NCBI RefSeq assembly: GCF_025336525.1
Contig: NZ_JAOCZP010000002.1
Location: 682,001-746,000 of the forward strand
Length of the DNA stretch: 64,000 bases
Source of the DNA: Chelativorans salis
GTDB taxonomy: Bacteria > Pseudomonadota > Alphaproteobacteria > Rhizobiales > Rhizobiaceae
Direction of reading: 5' to 3'
Under the pieces are notes generated by a model that saw only the letters and a list, made by a program, of their open reading frames with translations, made no database searches and was not told where the DNA came from. The position numbers were made by a program, and so were the translations under genes. Each line of letters starts with the position of its first letter. Within the stretch, counting starts at the first letter, position 1. This document shows positions 19,878-40,707 of this stretch, in pieces.

Positions 19878-21935
19878 CTACCGCCGCCTGCGCGCCGCCC
19901 GTTCCTCGCGCGAGCGGCGGCGCGGCCCTTCCGTGCCGCCGTCGCTGAGTACCTTGCGCGGCGGCAATGTCACCTGGCCGGCGAGCTTCGGATAGGGATC
20001 CACCTTGTTGGGCAGCGCCATGGCGTAGACGAAATGCTGCTGAAATCTCGGCTCAAGCGCGGTTTCGATCTTCTCGATCCTGCGCACCGTCTCCTCGATC
20101 TCGCGGCGGTGGTTCCGGTTGAGCAGCGCCATGCGCGCACCGGTGCCGGCGGCGTTGCCGACGGCGGACACCTTGTCGAGCTCGCAGTCCGGGATCAGCC
20201 CTAGCGTCATGGCATAGGTAGGATCGATGAAAGAGCCGAAGGCGCCGGCGAAGCGGATCGTGTCGACCGTCTCCACGCCTTGCTTTTCCATGAGCAGCTT
20301 TATGCCGGCATAGAGCGCCGCCTTGGCGAGCTGGATAGCGCGCACGTCATTCTGCGTCACCGCGATGCGCGGCTCGCCGTCGTGGAGCAGGTAGGAGAAG
20401 GTGCGACCCTCCGAAAAGACGCGCGGGCTTTTGGCGGCCATCGCACCGTCGATCACGCCGTCCTCGGAGACAATGCCGGAAAGATACATCTCGGCGATCA
20501 CCTCGATGATGCCGGAGCCGCAGATGCCGCTGACGCCGGTCGCGGCAATGGCTTCGGCAAAGCCCGGCTCGTCCGACCACAATTCCGAACCGATGATGCG
20601 GAAGCGCGGCTCCAATGTCTCGCGGTCGATGCGCACGCGCTCGATGGCGCCGGGGGCCGCACGCTGGCCCGAGGAGATTTCCGCGCCTTCGAAGGCCGGT
20701 CCGGTGGGGGAGGAGGCGGTGACCACGCGCTTCCGGTTGCCGAGCACGATTTCGGCGTTGGTGCCGACATCGACGATCAGCATCATCTCGTCCTGACGGT
20801 GCGGGCCTTCCGACAAGGTGACGGCCGCCGCGTCGGCGCCCACGTGGCCGGCAATGCAGGGCAGCATGTAGAGGCGCGCGCCGGGGTTTAGGTTCAGGCG
20901 CAGGTCGCCCGCCCGCGCCTTGACCGCGCCGGAAACGGCCAGCGCGAAGGGTGCGCCGCCGAGCTCCGTCGGATCGATGCCGAGGAACAGGTGGTGCATG
21001 ATCGGATTGCCGACGAAGACGGCGTCGAGGATGTCGGAGCGATCCACGCCGCCCTCGGTCGCCACCTTGTCGACGAGCTTGCCGACCTCCTGGCGCACGG
21101 CCTTGGTCATGGCCTGCCTGCCGTCCGGGTTCATCATGACGTAGGAGACGCGGCTCATCAGGTCTTCGCCGAAGCGGATCTGCGGGTTCGACGCGCCGGC
21201 CGAGGCCACGACGCGGCCCGACAGCAGTGAGACCATGTGCATGGCGATCGTCGTCGAGCCTATGTCGCAGGCGATGCCGTAGGCCTCATTCTTCAGGCCC
21301 GGCCAGAGCGCGATGATGCGCGCCGCATCCCCCTCGTCGTCGTGATGGATGGCGGCGGTGACGGCCCATTTACCCTGGCGCAGGATACTTTGAACTTCGC
21401 TCAGAAGATGAGCGTCCGCCTCCAGGCGGTTAAAACCCCAATCCTCGCGTAGCGCCGCCTTCAGGCGGTCGAGGTCGCCCAGCGGCTTGTGCATGTCGGG
21501 CTCGTCCACCTCGACATAGCATAGCTGCACCGCCGGATAGCGTTCGATCACCCTCTGGTCGGCGTCCTTGCGCACGACCTGCGCGTTGACGATGGCATCC
21601 TGCGGCACGTCGACGACGAGATCGCCTTCGATGGTCGCCGAGCAGGAGAGGCGCCGGCCGACCGGCAGCGCGCGCTTTTCGGCATAGCGCGCCTCCTTCG
21701 GCCCAATTGCTGAAATGCTGTCCTTGGACGAGGATATCTTGTGCTTGGCGAAGTGGCCTTCCTGCACCTCGATCTGGCAGCGCCCGCAGGTCGCCCGCCC
21801 ACCGCACACGCTCTCGACATAGACGCCGAGCTGCCGCGCAGCATCCAGTACCGTTGTGCCCTTCGGAAACCGTCCGCGCTTGCCCGAGGGCATGAAGAGG
21901 ACCAGGTGGTCCGCTATGTTGGGCGGCGCGTTCAT
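19878..21935 (-). CDS. Corrinoid activation protein: [2Fe-2S] ferredoxin plus ASKHA domain (RamA/RACo-like, DUF4445)
   Basis: This 685-residue protein begins with a plant-type [2Fe-2S] ferredoxin domain, cysteines 44, 50, 53 and 98 (CGGRATCGRC and LSC). The rest is an ASKHA ATPase-type fold of the DUF4445/RACo family, with IACDIGSTTIAMHM at about 221-234 and IVDVGTNAEIVLGN further on. Such proteins use ATP to reduce inactive Co(II) corrinoid to Co(I). It lies downstream of the methyltransferase on the same strand, separated by an inverted-repeat element that ends 36 bp before its start. In this island it most likely reactivates the corrinoid protein encoded at 27123-27821. ATG 21935 is chosen because upstream codons lie in the repeat. 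Confidence 0.9.
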   Translation of the reverse strand: MNAPPNIADHLVLFMPSGKRGRFPKGTTVLDAARQLGVYVESVCGGRATCGRCQIEVQEGHFAKHKISSSKDSISAIGPKEARYAEKRALPVGRRLSCSATIEGDLVVDVPQDAIVNAQVVRKDADQRVIERYPAVQLCYVEVDEPDMHKPLGDLDRLKAALREDWGFNRLEADAHLLSEVQSILRQGKWAVTAAIHHDDEGDAARIIALWPGLKNEAYGIACDIGSTTIAMHMVSLLSGRVVASAGASNPQIRFGEDLMSRVSYVMMNPDGRQAMTKAVRQEVGKLVDKVATEGGVDRSDILDAVFVGNPIMHHLFLGIDPTELGGAPFALAVSGAVKARAGDLRLNLNPGARLYMLPCIAGHVGADAAAVTLSEGPHRQDEMMLIVDVGTNAEIVLGNRKRVVTASSPTGPAFEGAEISSGQRAAPGAIERVRIDRETLEPRFRIIGSELWSDEPGFAEAIAATGVSGICGSGIIEVIAEMYLSGIVSEDGVIDGAMAAKSPRVFSEGRTFSYLLHDGEPRIAVTQNDVRAIQLAKAALYAGIKLLMEKQGVETVDTIRFAGAFGSFIDPTYAMTLGLIPDCELDKVSAVGNAAGTGARMALLNRNHRREIEETVRRIEKIETALEPRFQQHFVYAMALPNKVDPYPKLAGQVTLPPRKVLSDGGTEGPRRRSREERAARRRR

Positions 21936-21970
21936 TGGAGTCGGCGTTCCGGAATACGCCGACGGATGGC

Positions 21971-22147
21971 GCCCCTTCGCGCCCCCCTCCGGCCTGCCGG
22001 CCACCTCCCCCACGAGGGGGGAGATTGACCGTCATGCCCATCCCGCCTTTCCGGCAAGCGCGCCTGGAAAAGTGCCGTGGTCGCGGCCAGCTGATCTCCC
22101 CCCTCGTGGGGGAGATGGCCGGCAGGCCAGAGGGGGGCGCAAAAGGG
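21971..22147. repeat. Dispersed inverted-repeat element, copy A
   Basis: The left arm (about 21971-22026) and right arm (about 22093-22147) are imperfect inverted copies of each other. Each holds a palindromic core of C-run, ACGAG/CTCGT and G-run, then a GGCCGGCAGGCC palindrome, then a G-run with GCGC. About 65 bp of unrelated sequence separates the arms. Related elements are at 36261 and 45575. This copy lies inside an operon, between the methyltransferase and corrinoid activase genes, so it may form a strong RNA hairpin. Confidence 0.85.
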
Positions 22148-22169
22148 CACTGTCACCTCCGAACGTATC

Positions 22170-23153
22170 TCAATTCCGCCCCACCCGCGCCATGCGTGCT
22201 TCGCGCCCGCCGCGGCGCCGGCCGGCGGAAGCGGCGTGATTGCCGTTTCCCTGGGAAGACTCCCCGGAAGCGCTGGAGTTCCCGGCGGCGGCCGGCTGGT
22301 GGTCGCGGTAGGTCATGATCCAGGTGTGGCAGTTGGCGTCGGTGCCGTTCAGCACGTTGGCCGCGCGCACCATCTCCATTTCCTGCGGACGGCAGGGATT
22401 CATGATGGCGCTGGTCATGCCGGCGCCGATGACCATGGGGATGAAGCCGGCGTTGATGCCATGGCGGTGCGGCAGGCCGAAGGAGATGTTGGAAAGCCCG
22501 CAGGTGGTGTTGACCTTCAGTTCCTCGCGCAGCCGGCGCAAGAGCGCGAAGACCTGCTTGCCCGCCGTGCCCATGGCGCCGATGGGCATGACCAAGGGGT
22601 CGACGACGATGTCATGGGCGGGAATGCCGTAATCGGCAGCGCGCTGGACAATCTTCCTGGCCACCTCGAAACGCACATCCGGGTCTTCCGAAATGCCGGT
22701 CTCGTCGTTGGAGATCGCCACCACCGGCACGTCGTATTTCTTGACGAGTGGCAGGATGGCTTCCAGCTTCTCATCCTCACCCGTCACGGAATTGATCAGC
22801 GGCCGGCCCTTGGCCACCTTGAGCGCTGCCTCGATGGCCGCCGAGACCGAAGAATCGATGGAAAGCGGCACATCCACCAGTCCCTGCACGATCTCGAGCG
22901 TCTGCACGAGCAGATCCGGTTCGGTGGCATTCGGGTCCACCGCCGTCACGCCGGCGTTCACGTCGAGCATGGTGGCGCCGGCGGCGACCTGATCGAGCGC
23001 GTCCTTCTTCACCGTCTCGAAATTGCCGGCCACCATCTCGGCGGCGAGTTTCTTGCGGCCGGTCGGGTTGATGCGCTCGCCGATGACGCAAAAGGGCTGG
23101 TCGAAGCCGATGACGACTTCCTTGGTCGCAGAGGCAACGATAGTGCGGGTCAT
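22170..23153 (-). CDS. Methyl-H4folate:corrinoid methyltransferase (pterin-binding, AcsE/MtgA-like)
   Basis: A 327-residue TIM-barrel pterin-binding protein. Motifs of the methyl-H4folate:corrinoid branch are clear: IGERINPTGRK (24-34), MLDVNAG (62-68), PLSIDSS (96-102) and CGLSNISFGLPHR (218-230). It should move a methyl group between the corrinoid protein and H4folate. Residues 287-327 form an extra tail of low complexity (Ser/Gly/Asn, then GRRRGGREARMARVGRN) beyond the usual domain end. GGAGG precedes the start, and a palindromic operator candidate lies just upstream at 23171. Confidence 0.9.
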   Translation of the reverse strand: MTRTIVASATKEVVIGFDQPFCVIGERINPTGRKKLAAEMVAGNFETVKKDALDQVAAGATMLDVNAGVTAVDPNATEPDLLVQTLEIVQGLVDVPLSIDSSVSAAIEAALKVAKGRPLINSVTGEDEKLEAILPLVKKYDVPVVAISNDETGISEDPDVRFEVARKIVQRAADYGIPAHDIVVDPLVMPIGAMGTAGKQVFALLRRLREELKVNTTCGLSNISFGLPHRHGINAGFIPMVIGAGMTSAIMNPCRPQEMEMVRAANVLNGTDANCHTWIMTYRDHQPAAAGNSSASGESSQGNGNHAASAGRRRGGREARMARVGRN

Positions 23154-23170
23154 TCACAGTCCTCCAAGGG

Positions 23171-23190
23171 ATATAAAGACTTCTTTATAT
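23171..23190. promoter_or_regulatory. Perfect 9-bp palindrome, candidate ArsR/SahR-type operator
   Basis: Arms ATATAAAGA and TCTTTATAT are separated by two bases, 17-36 bp upstream of the methyltransferase start. A near-identical copy (one mismatch) lies upstream of the homocysteine methyltransferase gene at 33255. Such AT-rich palindromes suit a dimeric winged-helix repressor. A SahR-like ArsR regulator of methionine metabolism is a candidate from memory, but no such regulator gene is in the window. Confidence 0.6.
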
Positions 23191-23317
23191 CGTTATCTGA
23201 TGGGTTTCAAGCGGGAGAGTGAGTAGGGGAGCCGGGCGGCGATCGAACAGCAAACCCGTCTGGAAAACGGCAATTGAGGCTTCCCCCACTCGCTGCTCCC
23301 TATCTCGCTATTCCCTC

Positions 23318-24415
23318 TCATCCAGCCGCGTCCTTCACCATGTCGATCGGCTTCTCGCTTGGCGTCTCCAGAATGTGGTCCAGGCGCTCGGCCACCAGGG
23401 CGTCGTCCAGGCCCGGCTCGCGCTTCCACGGACGGCGGCCCTTCAGGACGCCCGATTCGTGGACGATCTCGGCCACGTATTCCTCCTGCCGGTAAGCCAT
23501 GACGTGAACCCCGGAAACGCCCTCGATCTCCTTCACCTCGTTGATGATGTCGATGCACAGGCGTTTTCCTTCGTCCTTCTGTTTCTCCGCACCTTCGAGG
23601 CGGGCGATGATGGAATCGGGAATATGCACGCCGGGCACGTTGGAGCGGATCCAACGTGCCGTCTTGGCCGAAGCCAGCGGCCCGACGCCGACGAGGATGA
23701 AGCATTGCTCGTGAAGGCCCATGTCGCGCACTCGCTTCATGTATTCCCTCAGCATCGGCACGTCGAAGCAGTACTGGCTCTGGACGAACTGCGCGCCCGC
23801 GGCAATCTTCTTGGCAAGCCGCAAGGGGCGGAAATCGTAAGGCGGGGCGAAGGGGTTGATGGCCGCGCCCAGGAAGACGGCGGGCGGCGTGGAGAGCTTG
23901 CGGCCGGAGAGGAATTTTTCCTCGTCGCGCATGGTGCGCACGGTTTCCAGAAGCGACATGCAATCGAGGTCAAAGACCGGTTTGGCACCCGGCTGGTCGC
24001 CCGCCTGCACGCCGTCGCCCGTCAGGCACAGGATGTTGCCCACACCCATCGCCGCCGCGCCCAGCACGTCGCCCTGGATGGCTATGCGGTTCCTGTCGCG
24101 GCAGGCGATCTGCATGATCGGCGCGTATCCCATGCGGGTGAGCAGTGCGCAGATGCCCATGGACGACATGTGGCAGTTGGCGCCGGAAGCATCGACAGCG
24201 TTGATGCCGTCCACCCAGCCGTCGAACACCGCTGCCCGCTCATAGGCGTCCTGCGCATTGGCGCTGTCGGGCGGGTTGAGCTCTGCGGTGACGGCGAACT
24301 CGCCGCGTCTCAGGATTCGCTCCAACCGCCCGCGCGAGGAGTGGCCGGGCAGCGGCTCGAGCGGCAGGTCGACGCCATGCGGGTTCTCATCGGGCTGAGG
24401 CGGGCGGCGTGTCAT
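23318..24415 (-). CDS. metF: Methylenetetrahydrofolate reductase, MetF family
   Basis: This 365-residue protein is a MetF TIM barrel. It has the N-terminal AVTAELNPPDS catalytic Glu segment, ILCLTGDG and the FVQSQYCFDVPML substrate segment. It interconverts methylene- and methyl-H4folate with a flavin. A proline-rich stretch of about 30 residues precedes the domain. The gene is fused by a 4-bp overlap to a MetV-like cysteine-rich partner, as in acetogens, and is followed by the methyl-H4folate:corrinoid methyltransferase. This suggests a catabolic role, oxidising methyl-H4folate from demethylation, rather than only making methionine; the direction is inference. Confidence 0.9.
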   Translation of the reverse strand: MTRRPPQPDENPHGVDLPLEPLPGHSSRGRLERILRRGEFAVTAELNPPDSANAQDAYERAAVFDGWVDGINAVDASGANCHMSSMGICALLTRMGYAPIMQIACRDRNRIAIQGDVLGAAAMGVGNILCLTGDGVQAGDQPGAKPVFDLDCMSLLETVRTMRDEEKFLSGRKLSTPPAVFLGAAINPFAPPYDFRPLRLAKKIAAGAQFVQSQYCFDVPMLREYMKRVRDMGLHEQCFILVGVGPLASAKTARWIRSNVPGVHIPDSIIARLEGAEKQKDEGKRLCIDIINEVKEIEGVSGVHVMAYRQEEYVAEIVHESGVLKGRRPWKREPGLDDALVAERLDHILETPSEKPIDMVKDAAG

Positions 24416-25011
24416 GCGGTCTCCCGTGCCTTTTCGCGCTGGGCGGTAGCCTGCGCGGTTACGCGCAGCCAGGCGGATGTCTCACGCAGCGACTGGTCGA
24501 CAGGCTTCTGCACGGCGAGGATGGCGTCGTGATTGCGCATCTTCTGCGACCCTTCCCACGCCTTCACCCAGACACAGGGCATGTCTGGCTCGACCTCACA
24601 GTTGCCGTTGGCGCGCACGCCGCCGCAGGGGCCGTTGCGCAGCTGCTTGGGGCAGTTCATGGGGCACGACATGCCGGTCGAGGAAAGGATGCACTGGCCG
24701 CACATGCGGCAGTCGAACATGAGCCCCTTCACATTCCGTTCGACGAATTTCACCGGCTTTTCGGCGCGGCGGTAGCCGATCGCGTTCCACAAGGGATGCA
24801 GCGTCAGGAAGAGGTCCGCGAACCGTGCATAGAACCATTCGAGGAAACGCGCATGGCGCACCGACCAAAGCCGCATCGTGTAGCGCCGCTGCACGCGCCG
24901 CTGGGGCGAAACGTCCGCCGGCTTGTAGGCCAGAAGGGCGCGCGCCTTTCTGACCAGCGTCGCCTGTGTGACGCGGGATTTCCGCGTTGGCCGCCCGTCA
25001 GTCCGCGACAT
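24412..25011 (-). CDS. MetV-like cysteine-rich protein (methylene-H4folate reductase C-terminal domain)
   Basis: A 199-residue protein with eight cysteines in a compact region: 101, 104, 107, 116, 120, 129, 138 and 146 (CRMCGQC, CPMNC, GPCGG, GNC, PC). This is the MTHFR C-terminal (PF12225-type) domain, found as MetV in acetogens, where it binds zinc or iron-sulfur and partners MetF. The first 90 residues are basic and helical, including an aromatic stretch (FLEWFYARFADLFLTLHPLW) that could contact membrane or partner. It overlaps metF by 4 bp and the upstream gene by 14 bp, showing tight co-expression. It could provide an alternative electron route for MetF. Confidence 0.85.
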   Translation of the reverse strand: MSRTDGRPTRKSRVTQATLVRKARALLAYKPADVSPQRRVQRRYTMRLWSVRHARFLEWFYARFADLFLTLHPLWNAIGYRRAEKPVKFVERNVKGLMFDCRMCGQCILSSTGMSCPMNCPKQLRNGPCGGVRANGNCEVEPDMPCVWVKAWEGSQKMRNHDAILAVQKPVDQSLRETSAWLRVTAQATAQREKARETA

Positions 25012-25300
25012 GTCCGCCTGCCTTGACGAGAGCCTTCAGCCGCTCGTCGGAAAATTCCCGTTCGATGCTTGCCAGCGCCTTGTCCGCCTCCGCCTCGAGA
25101 TCGTCGCTGACCGCCTGGGGCGTGCCGCGCCGCCATTCCGCGAGATAGGCATCGGTGTCGCGGGCGCCGACGCGCATGGCGCACATGTCGATTGCCTCGG
25201 TGAAGCGCAGGGGCAGCTCGCGCTTGGCCGTTTTACGTCCCATCCTGACAATGACTTGTGCAGGAATGTCGCGCCAGTAAACCACGATCAGATCGGCCAT
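24998..25300 (-). CDS. Small PF13769-type 'virulence factor' protein
   Basis: A 100-residue soluble protein, MADLIVVYWRDIPAQVIVRM and onward, matching the family named 'virulence factor' (PF13769) by its IPAQV, GRKTAKRELPLRF and AIDMCAM segments. The name carries no proven function. It overlaps the MetV-like gene by 14 bp, so it is a likely member of the same complex or pathway. The frame is open upstream to 25504, but ATG 25300 begins the conserved sequence. Confidence 0.75.
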   Translation of the reverse strand: MADLIVVYWRDIPAQVIVRMGRKTAKRELPLRFTEAIDMCAMRVGARDTDAYLAEWRRGTPQAVSDDLEAEADKALASIEREFSDERLKALVKAGGHVAD

Positions 25301-25415
25301 CTTGCCTTTGTTCCCTTGATTGAGTGGAGCATTGCCGCAAGCGCCATGGGCCCGCTTGCTGCGAGACGACGCGCGTGCCTTCAAAAACGACGCCCGCCAC
25401 GGGGCGTCGAGGCAG

Positions 25416-26096
25416 CTAGCCCATGAGGGCGCTGGCGAGCATGCCGGCCGCGCCGATGACGACGGCGATGACGATGAGGGAAAGTGCGCCGCTAGCCACG
25501 GCAACCGTCAGAAGGATACCGTCGCGCTCGGAAAGCGCCAGGCCGACCAGGGCGCAGGAAAACGCCGGAAACCAGTTGCCGAGTGGGATCGGCAGGGTCA
25601 CGGCGATGGCCAGGATGAGGGCGATGATGCCGATGAAGCGGTCGGCATGATCGCGTGCAAAGGGCCAGTAGCGCGGACGGATGAGCCGCTCGACCCACTT
25701 GATCTTGGGGATGAGCCGCTCGCTCATGCCGCGGAATTGTGCAGCACTCAGCGATTTTTGAAGGATGAAGCGGGGCAGCCAGACCGTGCGCTGGCCAAAC
25801 ACCATCTGGATGGACAAAAGCAGGAGCGGAATGCCCAGCACCAGCGTGCTGCCCGGCGGCAGCGGAAGCAAATTGATGGAGGAGAAGAACACCAGAAGCG
25901 TCGCAAAGCTGCGGTCGCCCAGCGCCTGGCGAAGCTGCTCCACCGTCACCGTGCCCTCGGCGTTGCTTGCCAGCTCCTCGAAAATCATGGACAGGCGGCG
26001 CGGCGGCAGGTCTGCGGCAACCCGTCGTGACACCATGCCCAGACCCGTTCCCTCCGCCTTCACATCCGTTTTTCCTGTCATGTGGTCTGAAAACAT
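25416..26096 (-). CDS. ExoD-family membrane protein
   Basis: A 226-residue inner-membrane protein of the exopolysaccharide synthesis ExoD family. After a soluble N-terminus (residues about 1-65) there is the family segment FATLLVFFSSINLLPLPPGSTLVLGIPLLLLS, and further membrane helices near 150-180 and 195-225. S. meliloti ExoD affects exopolysaccharide and alkaline tolerance, but the mechanism is unknown. It stands 115 bp upstream of the small PF13769-type gene on the same strand. A link with methyl transfer is not evident. Confidence 0.85.
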   Translation of the reverse strand: MFSDHMTGKTDVKAEGTGLGMVSRRVAADLPPRRLSMIFEELASNAEGTVTVEQLRQALGDRSFATLLVFFSSINLLPLPPGSTLVLGIPLLLLSIQMVFGQRTVWLPRFILQKSLSAAQFRGMSERLIPKIKWVERLIRPRYWPFARDHADRFIGIIALILAIAVTLPIPLGNWFPAFSCALVGLALSERDGILLTVAVASGALSLIVIAVVIGAAGMLASALMG

Positions 26097-26248
26097 TTTC
26101 CCCTGCAGCAGTTAAGTCTTCATGACAGGCAGGGCAAGCTATCGCGGCCGCTGAGGGTGGTCGCAAGGAAAGCGGAGGGGGCGCTGGAGGGCATTGTCTT
26201 CATCATACCAGACAAGCCGCCGATTGGAGCCTTTTTGTGGTAGCGCGC

Positions 26249-26881
26249 TCATTCCACTGGCGCCTTGCCTGCCGCCTCGACGAGGGCACTGGCCAGGTCG
26301 CCGTAGCCGGTGAAGCGGCGCTCGTAGGACAGGCCGAGCAGCTTTGCCGCATCCTGGGCCACCGTCTCCAGCGCGGGATCGTCGGTCTGCGCCAGATAGA
26401 CGAGCTTTTCATAGTTGCCGAAGTAATCCGCGATCAGCTCCGGATGCTCATCCAGGCGCAACGGCTTCAGGAAGAACGCCTCGAACTGCCGACACAGAAA
26501 GTCGGTCATGTAGAAGGACGTCATATCGTCCTCGCCGATCTCGGCGAAGGCCTCCAGTCCCTGATAGAACGCAAAGCAGTGCGGTCCGGCAATACGCTCG
26601 ACGCCATGCTTCTCGCACACGCGGTCGAGCCGGCCGCCCGTGCCGCAGTCGGCATAGCCGACGAAGATATGACTGTAGCCTTCTTCCCTGGCCTCTGCGA
26701 TGGCCGTGTCCATGGCGGGTGCAATCCGGTCGGGGCGGTAGTGGAATTCCGCTGGCAGGCAGGTGAGCTCCAGATGGTCGAGCCCCAGCCGCTCGCGCAC
26801 GGCCAGCACCTCGCGGGCGATCATCCCGCAGGCGATAACCAGAACCTTTTCAGGCCGGGTTCGTTCTTCGGTCATTGCCAT
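26249..26881 (-). CDS. DUF1638 domain-containing protein
   Basis: A protein of 210 residues with the DUF1638 pattern: VLVIACGMIAREVLAV at the start, LTCLPAEFHYRPDRI, FVGYADCGTGGRLD and GPHCFAFYQG. The conserved Cys in ACGM, YADCGTGG and GPHCF could ligate a metal. The family function is unknown. It lies between the corrinoid protein gene and the MetF/MetV genes on the same strand, suggesting a part in corrinoid or methyl transfer. ATG 26881 is chosen because GGAAAAAAG precedes it; 26899 and 26875 are alternatives. Confidence 0.85.
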   Translation of the reverse strand: MAMTEERTRPEKVLVIACGMIAREVLAVRERLGLDHLELTCLPAEFHYRPDRIAPAMDTAIAEAREEGYSHIFVGYADCGTGGRLDRVCEKHGVERIAGPHCFAFYQGLEAFAEIGEDDMTSFYMTDFLCRQFEAFFLKPLRLDEHPELIADYFGNYEKLVYLAQTDDPALETVAQDAAKLLGLSYERRFTGYGDLASALVEAAGKAPVE

Positions 26882-26928
26882 CTTTTTTCCGCGCACCATA
26901 ATAGCGCATACCGAATGGGAGACGCGTC

Positions 26929-27090: not shown

Positions 27091-27122
27091 CCGCCGGCCG
27101 CATATAGCTACCGACAGCCGTT

Positions 27123-27821: not shown

Positions 27822-28161
27822 TCGCTGGCTCCTGCCGTTCTTGCCGCGCGCAAATCGGCCAAATGCATGTTCGCACGTACATAATCCGCTTTTTGCCGGC
27901 TTCCATAGCCAAATTGCGACGTGATGCAAAAGGAAAGCGACTGGAAATCCCGCTCTTGGTGCTTTTCGGCGCGGCGCGGGTGGTACACCCATTAGGAGAA
28001 ATTGTCATTTATCTATAGTCAAGAAATTCGCCAAAGAACACCTGTTTCAAAGGCGTATAGCGATTGCTTCTACAATTTAAGGTTTATTTAACGAGACCGC
28101 CCATAGAGTGACTGCTAATATCTTTTTGGGGGCATGCATCGTCTTTCGTATGGAGAAGACA
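27822..28161. other. Divergent intergenic region, 340 bp
   Basis: This AT-richer region separates the corrinoid protein gene (minus strand) from an exported-protein cassette (plus strand) and must contain promoters in both directions. I see one short symmetric element, GGGTG-GTA-CACCC at 27978-27990, and no protein-coding frame with a ribosome site. No cobalamin riboswitch features were recognised. Confidence 0.5.
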
Positions 28162-28638
28162 ATGATGAGACCTCTGACAAAGCCGCTTTTCGGTGCCGCG
28201 TTCCTCGCAGCAATCGCAATTCAGCCGGCCAATGCCGAAACAGTCATTTTCAACGGCCTGATCACGTCCACCTGCCTTATCAACGTCGGCACGCCGGGCA
28301 CGCTGGTGGCGAGCGCCGACTATACGGAACTGAGTTCCACCGAAGCAGGCGGGACTTCCGGCACGGTGACGATCCTGACCACGGGCGCAGGATACGAAGT
28401 TTCCACCGACTCGCCGAGCGCCTTTGCCACAGCGCCCGCCGGCGGCGGCGATTCCGTCACCTTCGCCTCCAGCTACAGCGCCAACGGCGTGACCTCGCTC
28501 ACCGACGTCGTGGGCTCGCTTGCTTCGCCGCTCGGCCTGGGACTGACCAACCTTAGTGTCGATCTGATGGCGACGAAGTCTACGGGAACCTTCCCCGCCG
28601 GCGATTACATGGCCGAGGTCACGGTCACCTGCGAATAG
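28162..28638 (+). CDS. Exported beta-rich protein, possible fimbrial/spore-coat-U-like subunit
   Basis: A 158-residue secreted protein with a clear signal peptide (MMRPLTKPLFGAAFLAAIAI, cleaved after PANA). The mature part is Thr/Ser/Gly-rich and looks all-beta. A cysteine near its start (TSTCLINVG) and one at the end (VTVTCE) could form a disulfide, and the closing FPAGDYMAEVTVTC resembles the last strand of spore coat U/fimbrial subunits (PAGxYxDxVTV). That relation is a guess from pattern. ATG 28162 has GGAGAAGACA before it. It is the first of three adjacent genes for exported proteins. Confidence 0.6.
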   Translation: MMRPLTKPLFGAAFLAAIAIQPANAETVIFNGLITSTCLINVGTPGTLVASADYTELSSTEAGGTSGTVTILTTGAGYEVSTDSPSAFATAPAGGGDSVTFASSYSANGVTSLTDVVGSLASPLGLGLTNLSVDLMATKSTGTFPAGDYMAEVTVTCE

Positions 28639-28647
28639 GACCGGGCG

Positions 28648-29049
28648 ATGGGTGCCGGCAGCGGGCGAGGGGGGATCGCGGCGGTGCTGGCGGCGCTTAT
28701 GGCCGCCAGCCAGGCGCAGGCACAGTCGATGACGCCGATGCGCGGCGAAATCACCAGCTTTACGGATGAATTCGCCGTGCGGGTCACCCCCTATAACCCA
28801 TACCCGCACCGCATCCAGGTGGAGGTGCGCGTCTATGACGAGCACTTCCGCCCGGTCGCTGCGAAAGTGACGCCCGCCAAGATCATGCTGGGAAGCCGCG
28901 CCTCGCGTCGGGTGGTCGCCATGGTGAAGTTCGACGGTGCAGGCCAAAGGCGCGTCAGGGTGTGTGCCGAAAGCGTTCCCTTTCCACATGAGAAAACCAG
29001 GATAAAGGCCCAGATATGCGGACGTTTTGTCGCCCGTCGTTTGCGCTGA
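28648..29049 (+). CDS. Exported protein resembling half of a PapD-type chaperone
   Basis: A 133-residue protein with a signal peptide (residues about 1-26, ending SQAQAQ). The mature region, with RVTPYNPYPHRIQVEVRVYD, KVTPAKIMLGSRASRRVVAM and GQRRVRVCAESVP, recalls the first immunoglobulin-like domain of periplasmic fimbrial chaperones, but there is no second domain and no usher gene nearby. It follows the previous gene by 9 bp and overlaps the next by 34 bp. Function is not established. Confidence 0.55.
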   Translation: MGAGSGRGGIAAVLAALMAASQAQAQSMTPMRGEITSFTDEFAVRVTPYNPYPHRIQVEVRVYDEHFRPVAAKVTPAKIMLGSRASRRVVAMVKFDGAGQRRVRVCAESVPFPHEKTRIKAQICGRFVARRLR

Positions 29050-29489
29050 TAACGGCGCTCTTCATGGGATGGCTGGTGCCGGGCGCCGCATTGGCCGACA
29101 GCGGCCAGTACATCATCAACCAAAACCAGACGGGGCTGAACCTGCCGGGCGTCACCATGCCAAACGGCTTCGATGAAATCAGGGCCGCCGACGGCACGAC
29201 ATGCCGGTCTTCCATGGGAGGGCGGGGCGCCTATCTCGATTCAGGCGTCGTGGGCGGCGGCCTCAACAACAATTCCAGCACGCTCTCGGCCTATGGCCGG
29301 GTCGTCGTGCCGATGGGCAAGGGGCCCCCGAGGCTGGATTGCGACCGCCTTTACCAGCTCGAGCTGCAACGGCTGGAGCTCGAGGTCGAGCTTCTCAAGC
29401 GCGGCCTCGACCCGCGCATGAGCGCGCCCACCACCAACGATGCCGAGTGGGCAAGCGACGACGGCTGGACGACCGGCGACCGCAAATAA
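29016..29489 (+). CDS. Exported protein of unknown function, 157 residues
   Basis: The protein begins with a signal peptide (residues about 1-28, ending GAALADS). The mature part contains an Asn/Gly-rich region (YIINQNQTGLNLPG and VVGGGLNNNSSTLSAYGRVV), two cysteines and then a charged helix LDCDRLYQLELQRLELEVEL that looks like a coiled coil. It could be an assembly or surface-anchoring factor. I do not recognise the family. The 34-bp overlap with the preceding gene marks it as the third member of the cassette. Confidence 0.6.
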   Translation: MRTFCRPSFALITALFMGWLVPGAALADSGQYIINQNQTGLNLPGVTMPNGFDEIRAADGTTCRSSMGGRGAYLDSGVVGGGLNNNSSTLSAYGRVVVPMGKGPPRLDCDRLYQLELQRLELEVELLKRGLDPRMSAPTTNDAEWASDDGWTTGDRK

Positions 29490-31501: not shown

Positions 31502-31533
31502 GCTCATGTAAGGCATAGCTTAGGAGAAATTTC

Positions 31534-33274: not shown

Positions 33275-33317
33275 GTCGTCAATGAAATCTCCGCACCGGC
33301 GCGTGCGAAACCGCGGC

Positions 33318-34166: not shown

Positions 34167-34373
34167 TGCCGTCTCCTGCCGAATTGCAATAGGCGCGGCT
34201 GGTTAAACTCCCGCATTTGTTCACTTAAGTCAACAATTGCGGTGCATGCTTTCGAAAAGCAACGTTTTGTGCGCGTTCTCGCGTTGCCTGTTTTTGCCCC
34301 TCCTGACATCAATGTGTCAGGAATCGGACGCGGTGCCGGGCATGGGGTTTGGCGCCGCAGATCAGAGATAGCA

Positions 34374-35384
34374 ATGAAACCGAGAGACAAGCGCCGGCGC
34401 GGCCGTCCGGCGATTGAATGGCCGACTATTGTCTTGATTTTCCTTTGCTATGCCGCCTGGGGCACGGCGGGCGTCCTTCTGTGGCCCGGTTGGCCGCTCG
34501 CCGCGCTTGCCGTGCTCACGGTGACGATCGCCCTGCAATCCTCACTCATGCACGAATGCCTGCACGGCCACCCGACGCGCAACGCGCTCGTCAACGAGGC
34601 GCTGGTGGGCCTGCCCATCGGCCTCGTCTATCCCTATCGCCGTTTCAAGGCGCTGCACCTGCGCCACCACGCCGATGAGCGCCTCACCGATCCGTTCGAG
34701 GACCCGGAGAGCTACTATCGTGCGCTGTGGCAATATGAGGAGTTGCCGGCGGCGATCAAATTCGTCCTGAAGATCAACAACACGATGATCGGCCGCTTCA
34801 TCCTCGGCCCGCTCATCATGAACGCCGCCTTCTTCGCCTCGGATACGAAGCTGATCGCCGGGGGCGACCGCGACGTGCGCCGCGCTTGGGCGCTGCATGC
34901 GGCGGGGCTGGCCGTCGTCCTGCCCATCGTTGTCTACGGCTTCGGCATGCCTCTGTGGCTCTACGTCCTGGTGCCGGCGTGGCTTGGCCAGTCGCTCATC
35001 TCGGTGCGCACCTTCGCCGAGCATCAGTGGTCGGAGCGGCCGGACGGGCGGACCATCATCGTCGAGCGCTCGCCGCTGTCGTTCCTCTTCCTCAACAACA
35101 ACTTGCACCTCGTCCACCACAAGCTGCCTACCGTCCCATGGTACCGGCTTCCCGAGAACTACTGGGAAAAGCGCACAGAGTGGCTGTCCATGAACGGCGG
35201 CTACGCCTATCCGAGCTATTTCGCGCTTTTGAGGGACTTCGCCTTCCGCGCCAAGGAACCGGTGCCGCACCCCGTCCTGCAGCGCGAGCCGCACAGCCCG
35301 CGCGCCTTCCGCCCGCGCGCCCGCGGCCGCTCGCTGACGGGAGCGGGTACCGTGCCTGTGCCGGCGAGGCCCGTGAAAGAATAG
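34374..35384 (+). CDS. Membrane fatty acid desaturase family protein
   Basis: A 336-residue di-iron membrane enzyme of the fatty acid desaturase superfamily. Histidine boxes are HECLHGH (60-66), HLRHH (95-99) and, toward the C-terminus, HLVHH preceded by NNN. Hydrophobic helices lie near 18-55 and 180-215. The substrate cannot be told from sequence: desaturation or hydroxylation of lipids is possible, and so is oxidation of another methylated compound. ATG 34374 begins the conserved part. The C-terminal 35 residues are Arg/Pro-rich (RAFRPRARGRS). It is followed 44 bp later by a PhnD-like gene. Confidence 0.85.
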   Translation: MKPRDKRRRGRPAIEWPTIVLIFLCYAAWGTAGVLLWPGWPLAALAVLTVTIALQSSLMHECLHGHPTRNALVNEALVGLPIGLVYPYRRFKALHLRHHADERLTDPFEDPESYYRALWQYEELPAAIKFVLKINNTMIGRFILGPLIMNAAFFASDTKLIAGGDRDVRRAWALHAAGLAVVLPIVVYGFGMPLWLYVLVPAWLGQSLISVRTFAEHQWSERPDGRTIIVERSPLSFLFLNNNLHLVHHKLPTVPWYRLPENYWEKRTEWLSMNGGYAYPSYFALLRDFAFRAKEPVPHPVLQREPHSPRAFRPRARGRSLTGAGTVPVPARPVKE

Positions 35385-35428
35385 AGGCCAGCCTTGCCCT
35401 TTCCGGCGCTGTCGGAAGATAACGCATC

Positions 35429-36235
35429 ATGAGCAGTCTCATCGCCGCCCTTCCGATGTACGACTGGCCTGAGGCCAGGGCCGAAACCGATGCCGAGTGG
35501 GCGCGGTTCCGCGACGCTCTGCAGATGGTCGGCATCGATGCACCCGTGCGGCTTGCCCGCCGCAACGCGGATTTGCCGGCGGTGCCTGGCGGCATACGGG
35601 ATGCCGAAGGCCGACAGATCGCACCGGACCCGGCGACGCTGCCCCCGGACGAGCTCGACTTTGCAACATTGTGGCGGCATCCGCGGCTCCTCCTGGCGCA
35701 AACCTGCTGGGGGCCGATGGAGGCAGGGCTTGAATCGGATGTGCAGGTGGTCGGCCAGCCTGCGTATTCAGTCTACGAGGGCGGCGAGGGGCCGCTCTAT
35801 TCAAGCGCCATCCTGATGCGGCGCCAAGATGCGCCGGCGGTGGCGCCTCCCGCCGACGGGTGCGCCTCAATCCCGCTGGAGACTCTGCTCGGCAAGCGCC
35901 TTGCCTATAACGAACCCCATTCCATGTCAGGTTTCCTCGCTCTCAAGCGCGATCTGGAGGCGATGGGTGAGGGGGTATCGCTGTTTTCCGAGTGTGTGCA
36001 AACAGGCTCGCACGGCGCCGCCGCGCTTGCGGTGGCCGAGGGCAGGGCGGACATCTGCGCTGTCGACTGCCGGACCTGGGCGCTCATCCGGCGTTTCAGG
36101 CCCGCATCCGCCGGCCTGGTGGTCGTCGGGTGGACGGCGCGGCGGAAGGGATTGCCTTTCATCACGAGCAGGGCGACAGGTGGGGAGCACCTGGCGATCC
36201 TCCGGCGCACGCTCGGTCATCTCTCTCCTGCTTGA
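35429..36235 (+). CDS. PhnD-like periplasmic-binding-fold protein without signal peptide
   Basis: A 268-residue protein of the phosphate/phosphite/phosphonate-binding (PhnD, PF12974) fold. Conserved blocks include LLAQTCWGPME, GKRLAYNEPHSMSGFLALKRDLE, TGSHGAAALAVAEGRADICAVDCRTWALI and GLPFITS. It has no signal peptide and no permease or ATPase partner nearby, so it is probably a cytoplasmic binding or sensing protein rather than a transport component. It follows the desaturase on the same strand and may be co-transcribed. The ligand is unknown. Confidence 0.8.
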   Translation: MSSLIAALPMYDWPEARAETDAEWARFRDALQMVGIDAPVRLARRNADLPAVPGGIRDAEGRQIAPDPATLPPDELDFATLWRHPRLLLAQTCWGPMEAGLESDVQVVGQPAYSVYEGGEGPLYSSAILMRRQDAPAVAPPADGCASIPLETLLGKRLAYNEPHSMSGFLALKRDLEAMGEGVSLFSECVQTGSHGAAALAVAEGRADICAVDCRTWALIRRFRPASAGLVVVGWTARRKGLPFITSRATGGEHLAILRRTLGHLSPA

Positions 36236-36260
36236 TTTTACAGGTGTGGTTTACCGCCGA

Positions 36261-36426
36261 GCCCCTTCGCGCCCCTCTGTCCTGCCGGACATCTCCCCCA
36301 CGAGGGGGAGATTGGCCGTGGAGAAGGTTTCGCCCAGTCGCCTGTGTTGCGGGGAAGCGCCGGCAAAGCGGCCAGCGCAGTCTCCCCCGTGTGGGGGAGA
36401 TGTCCGGCAGGACAGAGGGGGGCGCT
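36261..36426. repeat. Dispersed inverted-repeat element, copy B
   Basis: The left arm (about 36261-36313) and right arm (about 36380-36426) are inverted relative to each other, with a C-run, ACGAG or GTGTG, G-run core and a TGTCCGGCAGGACA-type palindrome. About 65 bp lies between them. The plan is the same as at 21971 and 45575. It sits between the convergent 3' ends of the PhnD-like and DMGDH-like genes, where its hairpins could aid termination. Confidence 0.85.
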
Positions 36427-36462
36427 GACCATCCTGATTTCAACTGTTAGGGGCGGGGCGGC

Positions 36463-39051
36463 CTACCCCCGCATCCGCTCCCCTTCCGGATCGAACGGCG
36501 GCAGAAGGTTGATGCGCGCCGGGCGGCGTACCCCAAGAATTTCGATCTCGAACAGCCCCTCGCTCTCATCCTCCGCCAGTTCCGCCGGCACATAGCCCTG
36601 CGCCATGGACTTTTCGACGAAATGCCCATAGCCGCCGGAGGTGACCCAACCGACGACGCGCCATTCGCCGTCTTCAATCCCGCGGATATGCGCCGAATCC
36701 TCGCCGCTCAACGCAGCAGTCCCGCTTCTTCGAACCGCCTCGCCGCCGGCCTCGAACCGCGGTGCCCCGAAGCCATGCGGCTTCTCCACCGTGCCGAAAT
36801 CCTCGCTCCCCACCTTCGCCCAGATCGGCTCATCGCCCATCACGTCGGCGTCCAGCGCCTCGACGATGAAGGAGACGCGGCGCAGCTTGGGTCCTTCCGC
36901 CTTCTCTCTCGCCGCCGCCTCGCGGCCGATAAAGTCGTTCTTCTCCAGCCTGACGAAGCGCTCCATCGCTCCCTCGAAAGGCCCGTAGATGGGGCGAAGC
37001 TCGCGGAACCAGGTGGGAAAGTTCTTTTCGAGCCGCATGGACAGAAGCGCCCGCATGCCGAAATCGACGATGCCGAACTCCGCACCCGCCTCCTTGATGC
37101 CGTCATAGACGCGCCGCTGATAGGCTGGCGGCATCCAGATCTCGTAGCCGAGATCGCCGGTATAGGTGAGCCGGTTGACCACGCATGGCGCACCCGTAAC
37201 CGCCATTTCGCGGAAATCCATGAAGCGGAAGGCTTCCCTGGAAACGTCCACGTCGGCAAGCTTCTCCAGCACCGCGCGCGACTTCGGCCCGGCGATGGAA
37301 AGCCCCACTAGCGTTTGGTCGAAGCGGTGGATGCGCACCGAGCCGTCCTTCGGCAGGTGCTTTTCGAACCATCGCTTGTGGTAGACCTGCGCGGCCGACG
37401 AGCCCCAGATCATGAAGCGCTCGTCGCCGGCCCGGGCGATGGTGAAATCGCCGATCAGCCTGCCGAACGCATTGAGCATCGGCGACAGCACGATGCGGCC
37501 CGTCTTCGGCATGCGGTTGGTCATCAGCCGGTCGAGGAAGGCCGCCGCGCCGGGTCCGGAGACCTGGTATTTGGCAAAGTTCGCGATCTCGGTGACGCCG
37601 ACACCGTTCCTGACGGCGCGCACCTCGTTGCCGACATGCTCGAAATCGTTGGAGCGGTGGAAGGAGACGATGTCCTTCGCCTCCGTGCCTTCCGGCGCGA
37701 ACCAGAGCGGCGTTTCCAGCCCCCAGCTATCGCCCATCACGGCGTTGTTGTCCCGCACCATGATATCATAGAGCGGCGTCGTCTGCGCCGGCCGGGCGGC
37801 TGGCAGCTCTTCGTTGGGGAAGCGGATGGAGAAGCGCCGCGAATAGTTCTCGCGCACCTTGGCGTTGGTGTAGCGCAACGTGGCCCATTCGCCGAAGCGG
37901 GCGACGTCCATGCCCCACACGTCGAAGCCCGGATCGCCGTCGACCATCCAGTTGGCAAGCGCCAGCCCCACACCGCCGCCCTGCGAGAAGCCGGCCATGA
38001 CGGCGCAGGCACACCAGAAGTTCGTCAGCCCCTGAACGGGACCCACCAGCGGGTTGCCGTCGGGCGCGAAGGTGAAGGGGCCGTTGATCACCTGCTTGAT
38101 GCCGGCTTTTTCCAGTGCGGGGAAATGGCGGAAGCCAACCTCCAGAGAGGGCGCGATGCGGTCGATGTCAGGCTGAAGCAACTCATGGCCGAAGTCCCAC
38201 GGCGTTTCGCGTTCGGACCACGGTTTTGCGGCCTTCTCATAGGTGCCGAGCAGGATGCCGTTCCGCTCCTGCCGCGTGTAAATCTCGCCCTTGAAGTCGA
38301 TGACGCCGATCATCTCGCGCCCCGTGGCGCGGTTGAATTCTTCGACCTCCGGCATCGGCTCCGTGAGCAGGTACATATGCTCCATGGCAAGCAGCGGTAG
38401 CTCCAGGCCCACCATCCGCCCCACCTCGCGCGCCCACAGGCCGCCGCAATTGACCACATGCTCGGCCTTCACCGTGCCCTTCTCGGTGACGACGTTCCAG
38501 GTGCTGTCGGCCTCCTGCGCCAGCTCCACCACCCGGTTCCTCAGCTCGATCTCCGCCCCCAGCTTGCGCGCTGCCTTGGCATAGGCGTGCGTGGTGCCGG
38601 AGGGGTCGAGATGGCCTTCGACAGGGTCCCACATGGCACCGACGAAGTTGGTCTCGTCCATGATCGGGAACATGGCCTTGGCCTCGGACGGGGTGATCAG
38701 CTCCGTCTCCATGCCCAGATAGCGCCCCTTGGCGTGAGCAAGCCGCAGGAAGTCCATACGCTCCGGGCTGTCAGCCATCATCACGCCGCCCGTCAGATGC
38801 AGCCCACAGGACTGGCCGGAGATCTCCTCGATCTCCTTGTAAAGCTGCACGGTATAAGCCTGCAGCTTCGCCACGTTCGGGTCGCCGTTCAACGTGTGGA
38901 AGCCGCCGGCGGCATGCCAGGATGAGCCGGACGTCAGCTCCGAACGCTCGATGAGAAGCACATCCGTCCAGCCTGCGCGCGCCAGATGATAAAGCACCGA
39001 GCAGCCCACCACGCCGCCGCCGATGACCACCGCTTTTGCATGGGTTTTCAT
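36463..39051 (-). CDS. DMGDH/SARDH-like FAD oxidoreductase with GcvT domain (copy 2)
   Basis: An 862-residue flavoprotein with the same plan as the one at 13365: FAD domain with GGGVVG (11-16) and SSWHAAGG, where His46 is the expected covalent FAD site, then a C-terminal folate-binding GcvT region (about 475-862). The two copies differ greatly after the FAD motif, so their substrates probably differ. It lies directly downstream of a second MttB-like gene (78-bp gap, same strand), which suggests an enzymatic pair: corrinoid-dependent removal of a first methyl group and oxidative removal of the next. The substrate is not known. Confidence 0.87.
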   Translation of the reverse strand: MKTHAKAVVIGGGVVGCSVLYHLARAGWTDVLLIERSELTSGSSWHAAGGFHTLNGDPNVAKLQAYTVQLYKEIEEISGQSCGLHLTGGVMMADSPERMDFLRLAHAKGRYLGMETELITPSEAKAMFPIMDETNFVGAMWDPVEGHLDPSGTTHAYAKAARKLGAEIELRNRVVELAQEADSTWNVVTEKGTVKAEHVVNCGGLWAREVGRMVGLELPLLAMEHMYLLTEPMPEVEEFNRATGREMIGVIDFKGEIYTRQERNGILLGTYEKAAKPWSERETPWDFGHELLQPDIDRIAPSLEVGFRHFPALEKAGIKQVINGPFTFAPDGNPLVGPVQGLTNFWCACAVMAGFSQGGGVGLALANWMVDGDPGFDVWGMDVARFGEWATLRYTNAKVRENYSRRFSIRFPNEELPAARPAQTTPLYDIMVRDNNAVMGDSWGLETPLWFAPEGTEAKDIVSFHRSNDFEHVGNEVRAVRNGVGVTEIANFAKYQVSGPGAAAFLDRLMTNRMPKTGRIVLSPMLNAFGRLIGDFTIARAGDERFMIWGSSAAQVYHKRWFEKHLPKDGSVRIHRFDQTLVGLSIAGPKSRAVLEKLADVDVSREAFRFMDFREMAVTGAPCVVNRLTYTGDLGYEIWMPPAYQRRVYDGIKEAGAEFGIVDFGMRALLSMRLEKNFPTWFRELRPIYGPFEGAMERFVRLEKNDFIGREAAAREKAEGPKLRRVSFIVEALDADVMGDEPIWAKVGSEDFGTVEKPHGFGAPRFEAGGEAVRRSGTAALSGEDSAHIRGIEDGEWRVVGWVTSGGYGHFVEKSMAQGYVPAELAEDESEGLFEIEILGVRRPARINLLPPFDPEGERMRG

Positions 39052-39129
39052 TTGCTTATGTCCGTATTTGAAGACGTTGGTTCCACCGCGGAGCGGCTCG
39101 GAGTGGGGGGTCGACCATTCCGCTTCATC

Positions 39130-40707
39130 TCAAAAATCCGTCGGCGCCCCGCCCTCGCGGATGCGGCGCTCCACGAACGCATCCAGCTCCTCGCGGATCG
39201 CCTCGTCCATCGGCGGTTTCTCGTATGTCTTCAGGCGCTCCTTCCACAGCCGGTTGGCATGTTCGATGGAGGTAGGGCCGCCGGCCTGCGCCCAGGTCTC
39301 ATAGTTGCGCCAGTCGGAGATGATCGGCGAATAGAAGGCTGTCTTGTAGCGCGCCTGGGTGTGGGGCGAGCCGAAGAAGTGGCCGCCCGGACCCACCTCG
39401 CGGATAGCCTCCACGCCGAGTGCGTCCTCCGAAAGATCGAGCGGGGTGAGAAACTCCGCCACCATCTGCAACAGATCGATGTCGAGCATCATCTTTTCGT
39501 AGGAGCAGCACAGTCCGCCTTCGAGCCAGCCGGCCGCGTGCTTGACGAGGTTGGCGCCGCCGTGAATGCAGCCCCATAGCGAAAAGACGCTTTCATAGGC
39601 GGCCTGCGCGTCCACCGTGTTGGCCGCGCACACATTGGAGCTGCGATAGGGAATGCCGTAGCGGCGGGCGAGCTGGCCGCCGATGAGCTGCGCCTTCATG
39701 GATTCTGGCGTGCCGAAGGCCGGCGCGCCGGAGCGCATGTCGACATTGGAGGTGAAGCCGCCATAGCCGACCGGCGCGCCCTTCCTCACCATCTGCGCGA
39801 AGGCAAGGGCGGCGAGCGCCTCGGCGTTCTGCTCAACCAGGGCCCCGGCCACGGTGATGGGCGCCATGGCGCCGGCGAGTGTGAACGGCGTGACGATGAC
39901 CACCTGGCCGTGGGCCGCCATCTGGATGACGCCCTCCAACATCGGGATGTCGAGCTTCAGTGGCGAGTTGGTGTTGATGACGGTGAAGCAGGAAGGCTCG
40001 TCGCGCAACTGTTCGGCGCTCACGCTACGGACGATGCGGGCAATCTCAATGCCATCCTGGTTGCGCTCCTTGCCGAGCGAATAGATGTGAAAGGTCTTAT
40101 CGGTCAGCGTGGTGATGTCGCGCAGGCATTCCAGATGCCTGATGCCGGCGTGGATGTCGATCGGCTCCACCGGATAGCCGCCCAGGCAGTGGATGATGTT
40201 GTGCATCTGGGCGAGCTTCACGAAATTGCGGAAGTCGGCCTGGTTTCCCGGCCGCCGCCCGTGGTCCGTATCGGAGCAGTTGGGCGCGGAGGCGATCTGC
40301 GCCAAGATGATATTGTTGCCGCCCATGCGCAGGTTGTGCGCCGGATTGCGTGCGTGGACGGTGAACTCGGACGGGCAATGGGCGATCAGCTCCAGCACCA
40401 TGTCGGCGTCGAAATGCACCCGGTGCGTGTCCTCGCGCACATCCGCGCCATGGCGGCGCATGATGGCGCGCGCCTCGTCGTGCAGCACCTCGATGCCGAT
40501 TTCCTTCAGCACCCGCAGCGAGGCAAGGTGGATCGATTCCAGCTCGTCTTCGGAGACAATCTCCGTCGGCGGGAAGGGAACCGTCAGTTGTCGGAAAGGA
40601 GGCTGGTCGAAAGCGCCGGCACCGCCACCCCGCTTTGCCGCACGGCCGCCACGCCGTGTGCGGCCGGCCTCGGGTTGTGCCTCGGCGGCTGCGTCGGGGA
40701 TGGTCAT
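39130..40707 (-). CDS. MttB-family corrinoid methyltransferase, non-pyrrolysine (copy 2)
   Basis: A 525-residue MttB-superfamily protein with the expected segments HARNPAHNLRMGGNN, FVKLAQMHNIIHCLGGYPVEP, TLAGAMAPITVAGAL, SGAPAFGTPESMKAQL and HAAGWLEGGLCCSYEKMMLDID. There is no in-frame TAG. It is clearly diverged from copy 1, for example LGGYPVEPIDIHAGIRH against SGGTVCEPVDVPVNKRH, implying a different substrate. Residues about 15-30 are Arg/Gly-rich (GRTRRGGRAAKRGGG). It is the first gene of a pair with the DMGDH-like copy 2. The upstream gap of 381 bp holds a candidate small RNA on the same strand. Confidence 0.92.
   Translation of the reverse strand: MTIPDAAAEAQPEAGRTRRGGRAAKRGGGAGAFDQPPFRQLTVPFPPTEIVSEDELESIHLASLRVLKEIGIEVLHDEARAIMRRHGADVREDTHRVHFDADMVLELIAHCPSEFTVHARNPAHNLRMGGNNIILAQIASAPNCSDTDHGRRPGNQADFRNFVKLAQMHNIIHCLGGYPVEPIDIHAGIRHLECLRDITTLTDKTFHIYSLGKERNQDGIEIARIVRSVSAEQLRDEPSCFTVINTNSPLKLDIPMLEGVIQMAAHGQVVIVTPFTLAGAMAPITVAGALVEQNAEALAALAFAQMVRKGAPVGYGGFTSNVDMRSGAPAFGTPESMKAQLIGGQLARRYGIPYRSSNVCAANTVDAQAAYESVFSLWGCIHGGANLVKHAAGWLEGGLCCSYEKMMLDIDLLQMVAEFLTPLDLSEDALGVEAIREVGPGGHFFGSPHTQARYKTAFYSPIISDWRNYETWAQAGGPTSIEHANRLWKERLKTYEKPPMDEAIREELDAFVERRIREGGAPTDF

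Follow-up and report, generated by a model that had tools for sequence, protein, structure and literature searches.

A probable Rhizobiales-type copy of the aerobic MtgBCDE methyltransferase system in Chelativorans salis, with two conserved small proteins beside its corrinoid activase

Described corrinoid methyltransferase systems

In the MtgBCDE system of Ruegeria pomeroyi, one MtgC and one MtgD are reported to serve both the demethylation of betaine by MttB/MtgB and the synthesis of methionine by MtgE (Mausz et al. 2025, PMC12478193). This set has been studied by knockout of mtgC and mtgD and by proteomics: either mutant fails both to make methionine and to grow on betaine, and N-osmolytes induce MetF2 more than any other protein. 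Here we describe a homologous set in a stretch of 64,000 nucleotides from Chelativorans salis (contig NZ_JAOCZP010000002.1, positions 682,001 to 746,000), referred to below as the window. Judging from their families and from the published homologues, these genes very probably form a Rhizobiales-type copy of the same aerobic dual methyltransferase, combining betaine demethylation with methionine synthesis.

According to the same study, the Mtg set occurs in diverse aerobic Proteobacteria. In Sinorhizobium meliloti the MtgBCDE genes are described as co-localised with both reactivation genes and with cobalamin genes, and MetH is named for that strain, as found here (PMC12478193). The homologues in Phaeobacter inhibens were described as a split methionine synthase, made of three MetH pieces, a DUF4445 activase and a DUF1638 protein, the last of which matters for growth when methionine is absent (Price et al. 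2018, PMC5764234). MtgE, the activase and DUF1638 are reported as needed for methionine synthesis in Ruegeria or Phaeobacter (PMC12478193, PMC5764234). The MtgB/MtgC/MtgA system of Desulfitobacterium hafniense likewise uses an MttB without pyrrolysine, and the methyl of betaine passes to a corrinoid protein and then to tetrahydrofolate (H4folate).

The island of Chelativorans salis

The genes found here share with the Ruegeria system an MttB-type MtgB, MtgC, MtgD, MtgE, RamA, DUF1638 and a MetF2 encoded beside MtgD (PMC12478193). Because of this match, the island is a further case of the published system and not an oddity. It differs from the Ruegeria set in that nearly all parts lie in one island, two MttB genes flank the set, and the genome also encodes a classical MetH. 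P. inhibens, in contrast, is described as having neither a PF02965 protein nor an annotated methionine synthase (PMC5764234), whereas the MetH found here carries the PF02965 domain. Set against the published description of the S. meliloti locus, the window has a single cob gene (cobQ) among the genes scanned. The members of the island, with positions in the window, are as follows.

19878 to 22013 (start uncertain), minus strand: RamA/RACo-like ferredoxin-ASKHA corrinoid reductive activase (RACE, PF14574); RACo_C_ter 303.3, Raco_middle 160.8, linker 100.6 and Fer2 31 bits
22170 to 23153, minus strand: MtgD, methyl-H4folate:corrinoid methyltransferase; NF005719, 399.8 bits (cut-off 259)
23318 to 24415, minus strand: MetF2, a methylene-H4folate reductase (MTHFR) paralogue; PF02219, 113.6 bits
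24412 to 25011, minus strand: MetV-like partner with an 8-cysteine motif; PF12225 (DUF5981), 96.3 bits
24998 to 25300, minus strand: PF13769 ('Virulence_fact') protein of 100 amino acids; 88.9 bits
25416 to 26063, minus strand: ExoD-family gene inside the corrinoid run; PF06055, 161.1 bits
26249 to 26824, minus strand: DUF1638 protein; PF07796, 82.4 bits
27123 to 27821, minus strand: MtgC, cobalamin-binding methyl carrier; PF02310 B12-binding domain 95.2, PF02607 cap 64.8 bits
29649 to 31244, plus strand: MttB1 (MtgB), a quaternary amine:corrinoid methyltransferase of the non-pyrrolysine kind, transcribed away from MtgC; PF06253, 791.6 bits
32183 to 33205, minus strand: MtgE (Bmt), homocysteine methyltransferase module; NF005718, 533.7 bits (cut-off 338)
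36463 to 39051, minus strand: DMGDH2, a dimethylglycine dehydrogenase (DMGDH)-like protein with flavin adenine dinucleotide and GCV_T domains, directly downstream of MttB2; family scan
39130 to 40707, minus strand: MttB2, second non-pyrrolysine MttB; PF06253, 666.8 bits

From 27821 down to 19878, the minus strand reads mtgC, DUF1638, exoD, PF13769, metV, metF2, mtgD and activase. The frames of PF13769 and metV overlap (24998/25011, 14 bases at the MetV start), as do those of metV and metF2 (24412/24415), which suggests that these three genes are translationally coupled.

Every module is present with strong family scores in the Pfam and NCBIfam scans of the window proteins. MtgC is a stand-alone corrinoid protein with a cap domain and the motif DxHxxG, also present in 34 of 34 non-redundant homologues. 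MtgD is a stand-alone pterin-binding protein, and most of its relatives of known structure are folate:corrinoid methyltransferases or folate domains of MetH. MtgE is a stand-alone homocysteine module of MetH type, and there are two non-pyrrolysine PF06253 proteins, where one would suffice for such a system. The activase is RamA-like, with 3zyy as its best solved relative (325 bits) and the motifs CxxxxxCxxC (residue 70) and DVGT (residue 415), and is accompanied by DUF1638. The genes for DMGDH1, sarcosine oxidase and a GbdR-like regulator adjoin the island, also in line with a role in betaine catabolism.

The original prediction, drawn from the DNA alone, had named the activase, MtgC, MtgD, MetF with a MetV-like partner, two MttB proteins and a homocysteine methyltransferase, and Pfam or NCBIfam models match each of them at the positions given above. 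It had taken both MttB proteins to be non-pyrrolysine, and indeed neither frame has an internal stop, so that neither protein reads pyrrolysine through TAG. Its proposal that quaternary amines are demethylated through a corrinoid into methyl-H4folate, with a dedicated MetF2, finds support in the Ruegeria homologues (PMC12478193). The parts and the catabolic direction therefore stand; the methionine-synthase role, DUF1638 and the wide aerobic distribution had been missed, and the PF13769 gene, the ExoD gene and the GbdR-like regulator had not been mentioned.

Conservation among relatives

A scan of a genome collection with MtgC gave at least 590 relatives among 592 candidate stretches, of which the best 80, mostly Rhizobiales by title, were kept. 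The counts that follow refer to the 67 of these loci for which 20 kb or more was available, with neighbours sought in the 10-kb flank. Downstream of mtgC and on the same strand are found MtgD, DUF1638 and PF13769 (65 of 67 each), RACE (64), and MetF2 and MetV (52 each). MttB1 is divergent and at most 5 kb upstream in 65 of 67, and MtgE is found in 50, a count limited by the flank. The gene set is not a chance grouping. The earlier view of it as unusual in an aerobe is not supported, given both this number of relatives and the distribution already published (PMC12478193).

Fifteen loci lack MetF2 and MetV alike, and in two of them (L028 and L069) MtgD, RACE, DUF1638 and PF13769 are absent too. 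Among the loci compared, the closest by mean identity is that of Nitratireductor aquibiodomus (88.45% over seven proteins). A genome from another class (G223) has the order mtgC-DUF1638-PF13769-metV-metF2-mtgD-activase with a divergent mttB1, which is the order of the window without exoD. The ExoD gene is present in only 25 of the 67 relatives and is probably not part of the corrinoid system.

Proposed flow of methyl groups

The copy in C. salis presumably does the same as its homologues in Ruegeria and Phaeobacter. MttB1 would demethylate a quaternary amine, for which glycine betaine is the likeliest candidate, and load the methyl group onto Co(I)-MtgC; MtgD would pass it on to H4folate. MetF2, together with MetV, is predicted to work in the oxidising direction, converting methyl-H4folate to methylene-H4folate, and the electrons would be carried by the cysteine-rich, probably iron-sulfur, MetV domain. 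The dimethylglycine left behind would then be processed by the neighbouring DMGDH and sarcosine oxidase. Acting in reverse, MtgD would also charge MtgC, from which the methyl group would reach homocysteine on MtgE. MtgC and MtgD with a homocysteine methyltransferase constitute a split methionine synthase (PMC5764234, PMC12478193), so that methyl flow is possible both ways. Corrinoid oxidised to Co(II) would be returned to Co(I) by the activase and DUF1638, probably with the help of the PF13769 protein, and MttB2 with DMGDH2 would act as a second substrate module supplying the same MtgC.

The MetV-like protein of the window shares its 8-cysteine motif with all 39 non-redundant homologues, and a search of the PDB gave no sequence relative at E <= 0.01. 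A separate and stronger MTHFR is encoded elsewhere in the genome (C12:427380, 304.7 bits), together with three weaker matches. The main text of PMC12478193 uses none of the terms MetV, pfam12225, pfam13769 and virulence.

MtgE and the methionine branch

By sequence, MtgE is closer to the homocysteine domain of MetH (1q7m, 142.9 bits) than to any solved betaine-homocysteine methyltransferase (BHMT; 39.3 bits at best), and for this reason its role as a module of a split synthase is favoured. That MtgE is instead a true BHMT, which demethylates betaine alone, seems unlikely. Such a role would agree with the model NF005718 (betaine--homocysteine S-methyltransferase), whose cut-off the protein exceeds, and with the purified Phaeobacter Bmt/MtgE, reported to form methionine from betaine and dimethylsulfoniopropionate without folate or cobalamin (PMC12366255). 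However, by overall score the similarity to the animal-type BHMT is weak, and MtgE of S. meliloti is described as lacking the residues needed to bind betaine (PMC12478193). On this protein the two 2025 papers disagree (PMC12478193, PMC12366255), and the sequence here cannot settle the matter.

A classical MetH is found elsewhere in the genome (C15:379000-388500, L186), encoded by two overlapping open reading frames. The first (L186:3169-4245, 358 amino acids) holds the homocysteine domain (PF02574, 331.3 bits) and the second (L186:4242-6917, 891 amino acids) the pterin, B12-cap, B12 and PF02965 activation domains (TIGR02082, 1213.9 bits, cut-off 1010.85). A core-MetE-like gene is present as well (PF01717, 43.6 bits; NF005085, 461 bits, cut-off 313). 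Because of this MetH, the methionine branch is probably redundant in C. salis and the catabolic branch probably the main purpose of the island, and the loss of mtgC should be masked as far as methionine is concerned. In a class sample of 115 alphaproteobacterial genomes, in which each genome listed has a family number of its own, a second, MetH-like match was read from the match table in 8 of the 24 genomes with MtgD (E 1e-60 or better), which agrees with the roughly 70% (108 of 156) without MetH reported in PMC12478193.

In the region C5:12000-28000 of the genome (L187), a span of about 8 kb holds a weak match to MTHFR, a core-MetE-like gene and a vanillate/3-O-methylgallate O-demethylase of LigM type (766.6 bits, cut-off 580). 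This locus could perhaps be a second, aromatic source of methyl-H4folate.

A rival reading is that the island is a split methionine synthase only: MtgCDE and the activase would use methyl-H4folate to form methionine, and the MttB genes would lie nearby without any link to it. The homologues in Phaeobacter are indeed important for methionine synthesis (PMC5764234), but the divergent MttB1 is kept beside mtgC in nearly all relatives, the genome retains MetH, and the Ruegeria mtgC mutant is reported to remain unable to use glycine betaine even when given methionine (PMC12478193), all of which makes this reading very improbable. Also very improbable is the version of the original prediction, a one-way and purely catabolic route parallel to the flavoprotein demethylases, which would account for the dedicated MetF2-MetV within the run and for the induction of MetF2 in Ruegeria (PMC12478193), but does not account for the homocysteine module MtgE, at most 4.4 kb from mtgC, and overlooks that, in the published pathway, corrinoid and flavoprotein steps take successive methyl groups. 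From that pathway, the steps are better placed in series, the corrinoid step lying upstream: MttB would remove the first methyl, and DMGDH and sarcosine oxidase the next two.

Several points weigh against the island being an MtgBCDE system with both functions. MtgC scores below the NCBIfam cut-offs for MtgC (NF047995, 178 of 310 bits; NF047996, 216.4 of 370), a point of difference from the D. hafniense system, and both MttB proteins are below that of the pyrrolysine-MttB model TIGR02369 (287.8 and 304.8 of 525). The folate- and cobalamin-free route of Bmt (PMC12366255) would bypass the corrinoid altogether, and the methionine role may be redundant here, given MetH. Finally, an mttB knockout in Mesorhizobium alhagi is reported to have no salt phenotype (PMC4302635).

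The two MttB modules

MttB1 and MttB2 are 44% identical. The solved glycine betaine methyltransferase 9yce matches MttB1 better (412.4 bits) than MttB2 (328.3 bits), which supports the assignment of MttB1 as the betaine module. The closest solved relative of MttB1 is 4yyc (954.4 bits), a protein from S. meliloti.

In a survey of 33 genomes (G000 and 32 relatives), each had between one and nine MttB matches, and these include some fragments and some distant paralogues. MttB2 is found at 76-84% identity in 14 other genomes, and in eight others the best match is at 61-64%. In 13 of 13 neighbourhoods of the close orthologues, DMGDH2 (81-87% identical) lies on the same strand, 91-1401 bases downstream, and it is absent from all seven neighbourhoods around the distant matches. 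From this pairing, MttB2-DMGDH2 is a stable two-gene module, distinct from MttB1.

In M. alhagi, which is among the relatives with the island (L010) and has five MttB matches in its genome, one of them a fragment, salt is reported to strongly induce an mttB together with fhs (PMC4302635). The available passages of that study do not say which MttB gene is meant.

The PF13769 protein and its possible part in corrinoid reactivation

The class sample was searched for five families, with matches in 27 genomes for the activase, 24 for PF13769, 24 for MtgD (E 1e-60 or better, two partial), 21 for DUF1638 and 10 for MetV. The activase model has a match in every one of the 24 PF13769 genomes, and PF13769 is absent from all 88 genomes that lack the activase. 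The domain is also present in 21 of 21 DUF1638 genomes, and lies at most 1.5 kb from a DUF1638 or MtgD match in 23 of 24. G056 has mtgC-DUF1638-PF13769-activase with no MtgD at E 1e-60, and G109 has mtgC-PF13769-mtgD-activase with no DUF1638. In a phylum sample of 299 genomes, 28 of 28 PF13769 genomes have DUF1638. The sampled genomes are kin, and Fisher values for these co-occurrences overstate their independence.

PF13769 thus tracks the activase more closely than it does MtgD, MetF2/MetV or DUF1638. On balance, we slightly favour the PF13769 protein as a functional component of aerobic corrinoid methyl transfer that has gone unrecognised; MetV would be the electron-transfer counterpart for a reverse-running MetF2 in aerobes. 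The co-occurrence of PF13769 with the activase points most to a role in the reductive reactivation of MtgC or in the docking of activase and corrinoid.

Other observations speak against this role. Bacillus subtilis, used as a control, has PF13769 and no match to the activase model, so the domain is not exclusive to the corrinoid system. In the phylum sample, DUF1638 occurs without PF13769 in 16 of 44 genomes, and in the class sample three of the 27 activase genomes have no PF13769 (G071, 82% complete; G081; and G077, with a stop in the activase match). PF13769 occurs without MtgD at E 1e-60 in G007 and G056 and without DUF1638 in G007, G074 and G109, the activase and PF13769 matches of G007 being both partial. 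On its contig in G001 (bases 627-887), PF13769 is the only one of the searched families found.

An AlphaFold2 model of the PF13769 protein (44 sequences, mean predicted confidence, pLDDT, 81.1) gave no match at E <= 0.001 in a Foldseek search of the PDB, and a scan of viral contigs gave no confirmed relative. Literature searches found no paper containing PF13769 or pfam13769, nothing relevant by title and abstract start among the papers listed under the alternative names of the family, and nothing on PF13769 under locus tags guessed by numbering as neighbours of SPO1863 and PGA1_c16040. In three papers on this system the word 'virulence' appears once, in a reference title. What is new here is PF13769 as a conserved, unstudied part of the corrinoid unit.

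In DUF1638, the residues C22, H28, C60, H82 and C83 are invariant in an alignment of 52 sequences and form a possible metal site. Its AlphaFold2 model (52 sequences, pLDDT 89.6) has no Foldseek match in the PDB at E <= 0.001. A likeness to ferrochelatase (rank 1, E 0.11) and coproporphyrin ferrochelatase (rank 10, E 0.70) was rejected as too weak (template modelling score 0.25-0.28).

Neighbouring genes

Much of the region from 8001 to 17816 is filled by genes for the downstream steps and their regulator, and a cobalamin gene lies on the other side of the island.

8001 to 13116, minus strand: SoxGADB genes for a heterotetrameric sarcosine oxidase (downstream step); family scan
13365 to 15881, plus strand: DMGDH1 (downstream step); DAO, FAO_M and GCV_T domains
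16818 to 17816, minus strand: GbdR-like AraC regulator of choline/betaine catabolism; NF052371, 371.4 bits, below the cut-off of 480
43524 to 45038, plus strand: CobQ, cobyric acid synthase (cobalamin biosynthesis); NF001989, 617.6 bits (cut-off 273)

Between mtgC and mttB1, the minus-strand frame 28084-28989 was at first taken as a gene and then discarded: it has no family match, and codon statistics favour small plus-strand frames there. For those at 28150-28638 and 29064-29489, neither a Pfam match nor a homologue in any of the 67 relatives was found. No cobalamin or S-adenosylmethionine riboswitch reached the Rfam gathering score in the window, where only a tRNA passed the threshold.

Implications

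A seemingly exotic, 'anaerobic' gene set can be read as a pathway of aerobic, rhizobia-like bacteria that was explained only recently. The interest that is left lies in PF13769, DUF1638 and MetV, and the questions are narrowed to three: how the corrinoid is kept as Co(I) in air, how MetF2 is driven oxidatively, and which amine each MttB uses. For the first of these, two conserved small proteins, DUF1638 and PF13769, accompany the activase.

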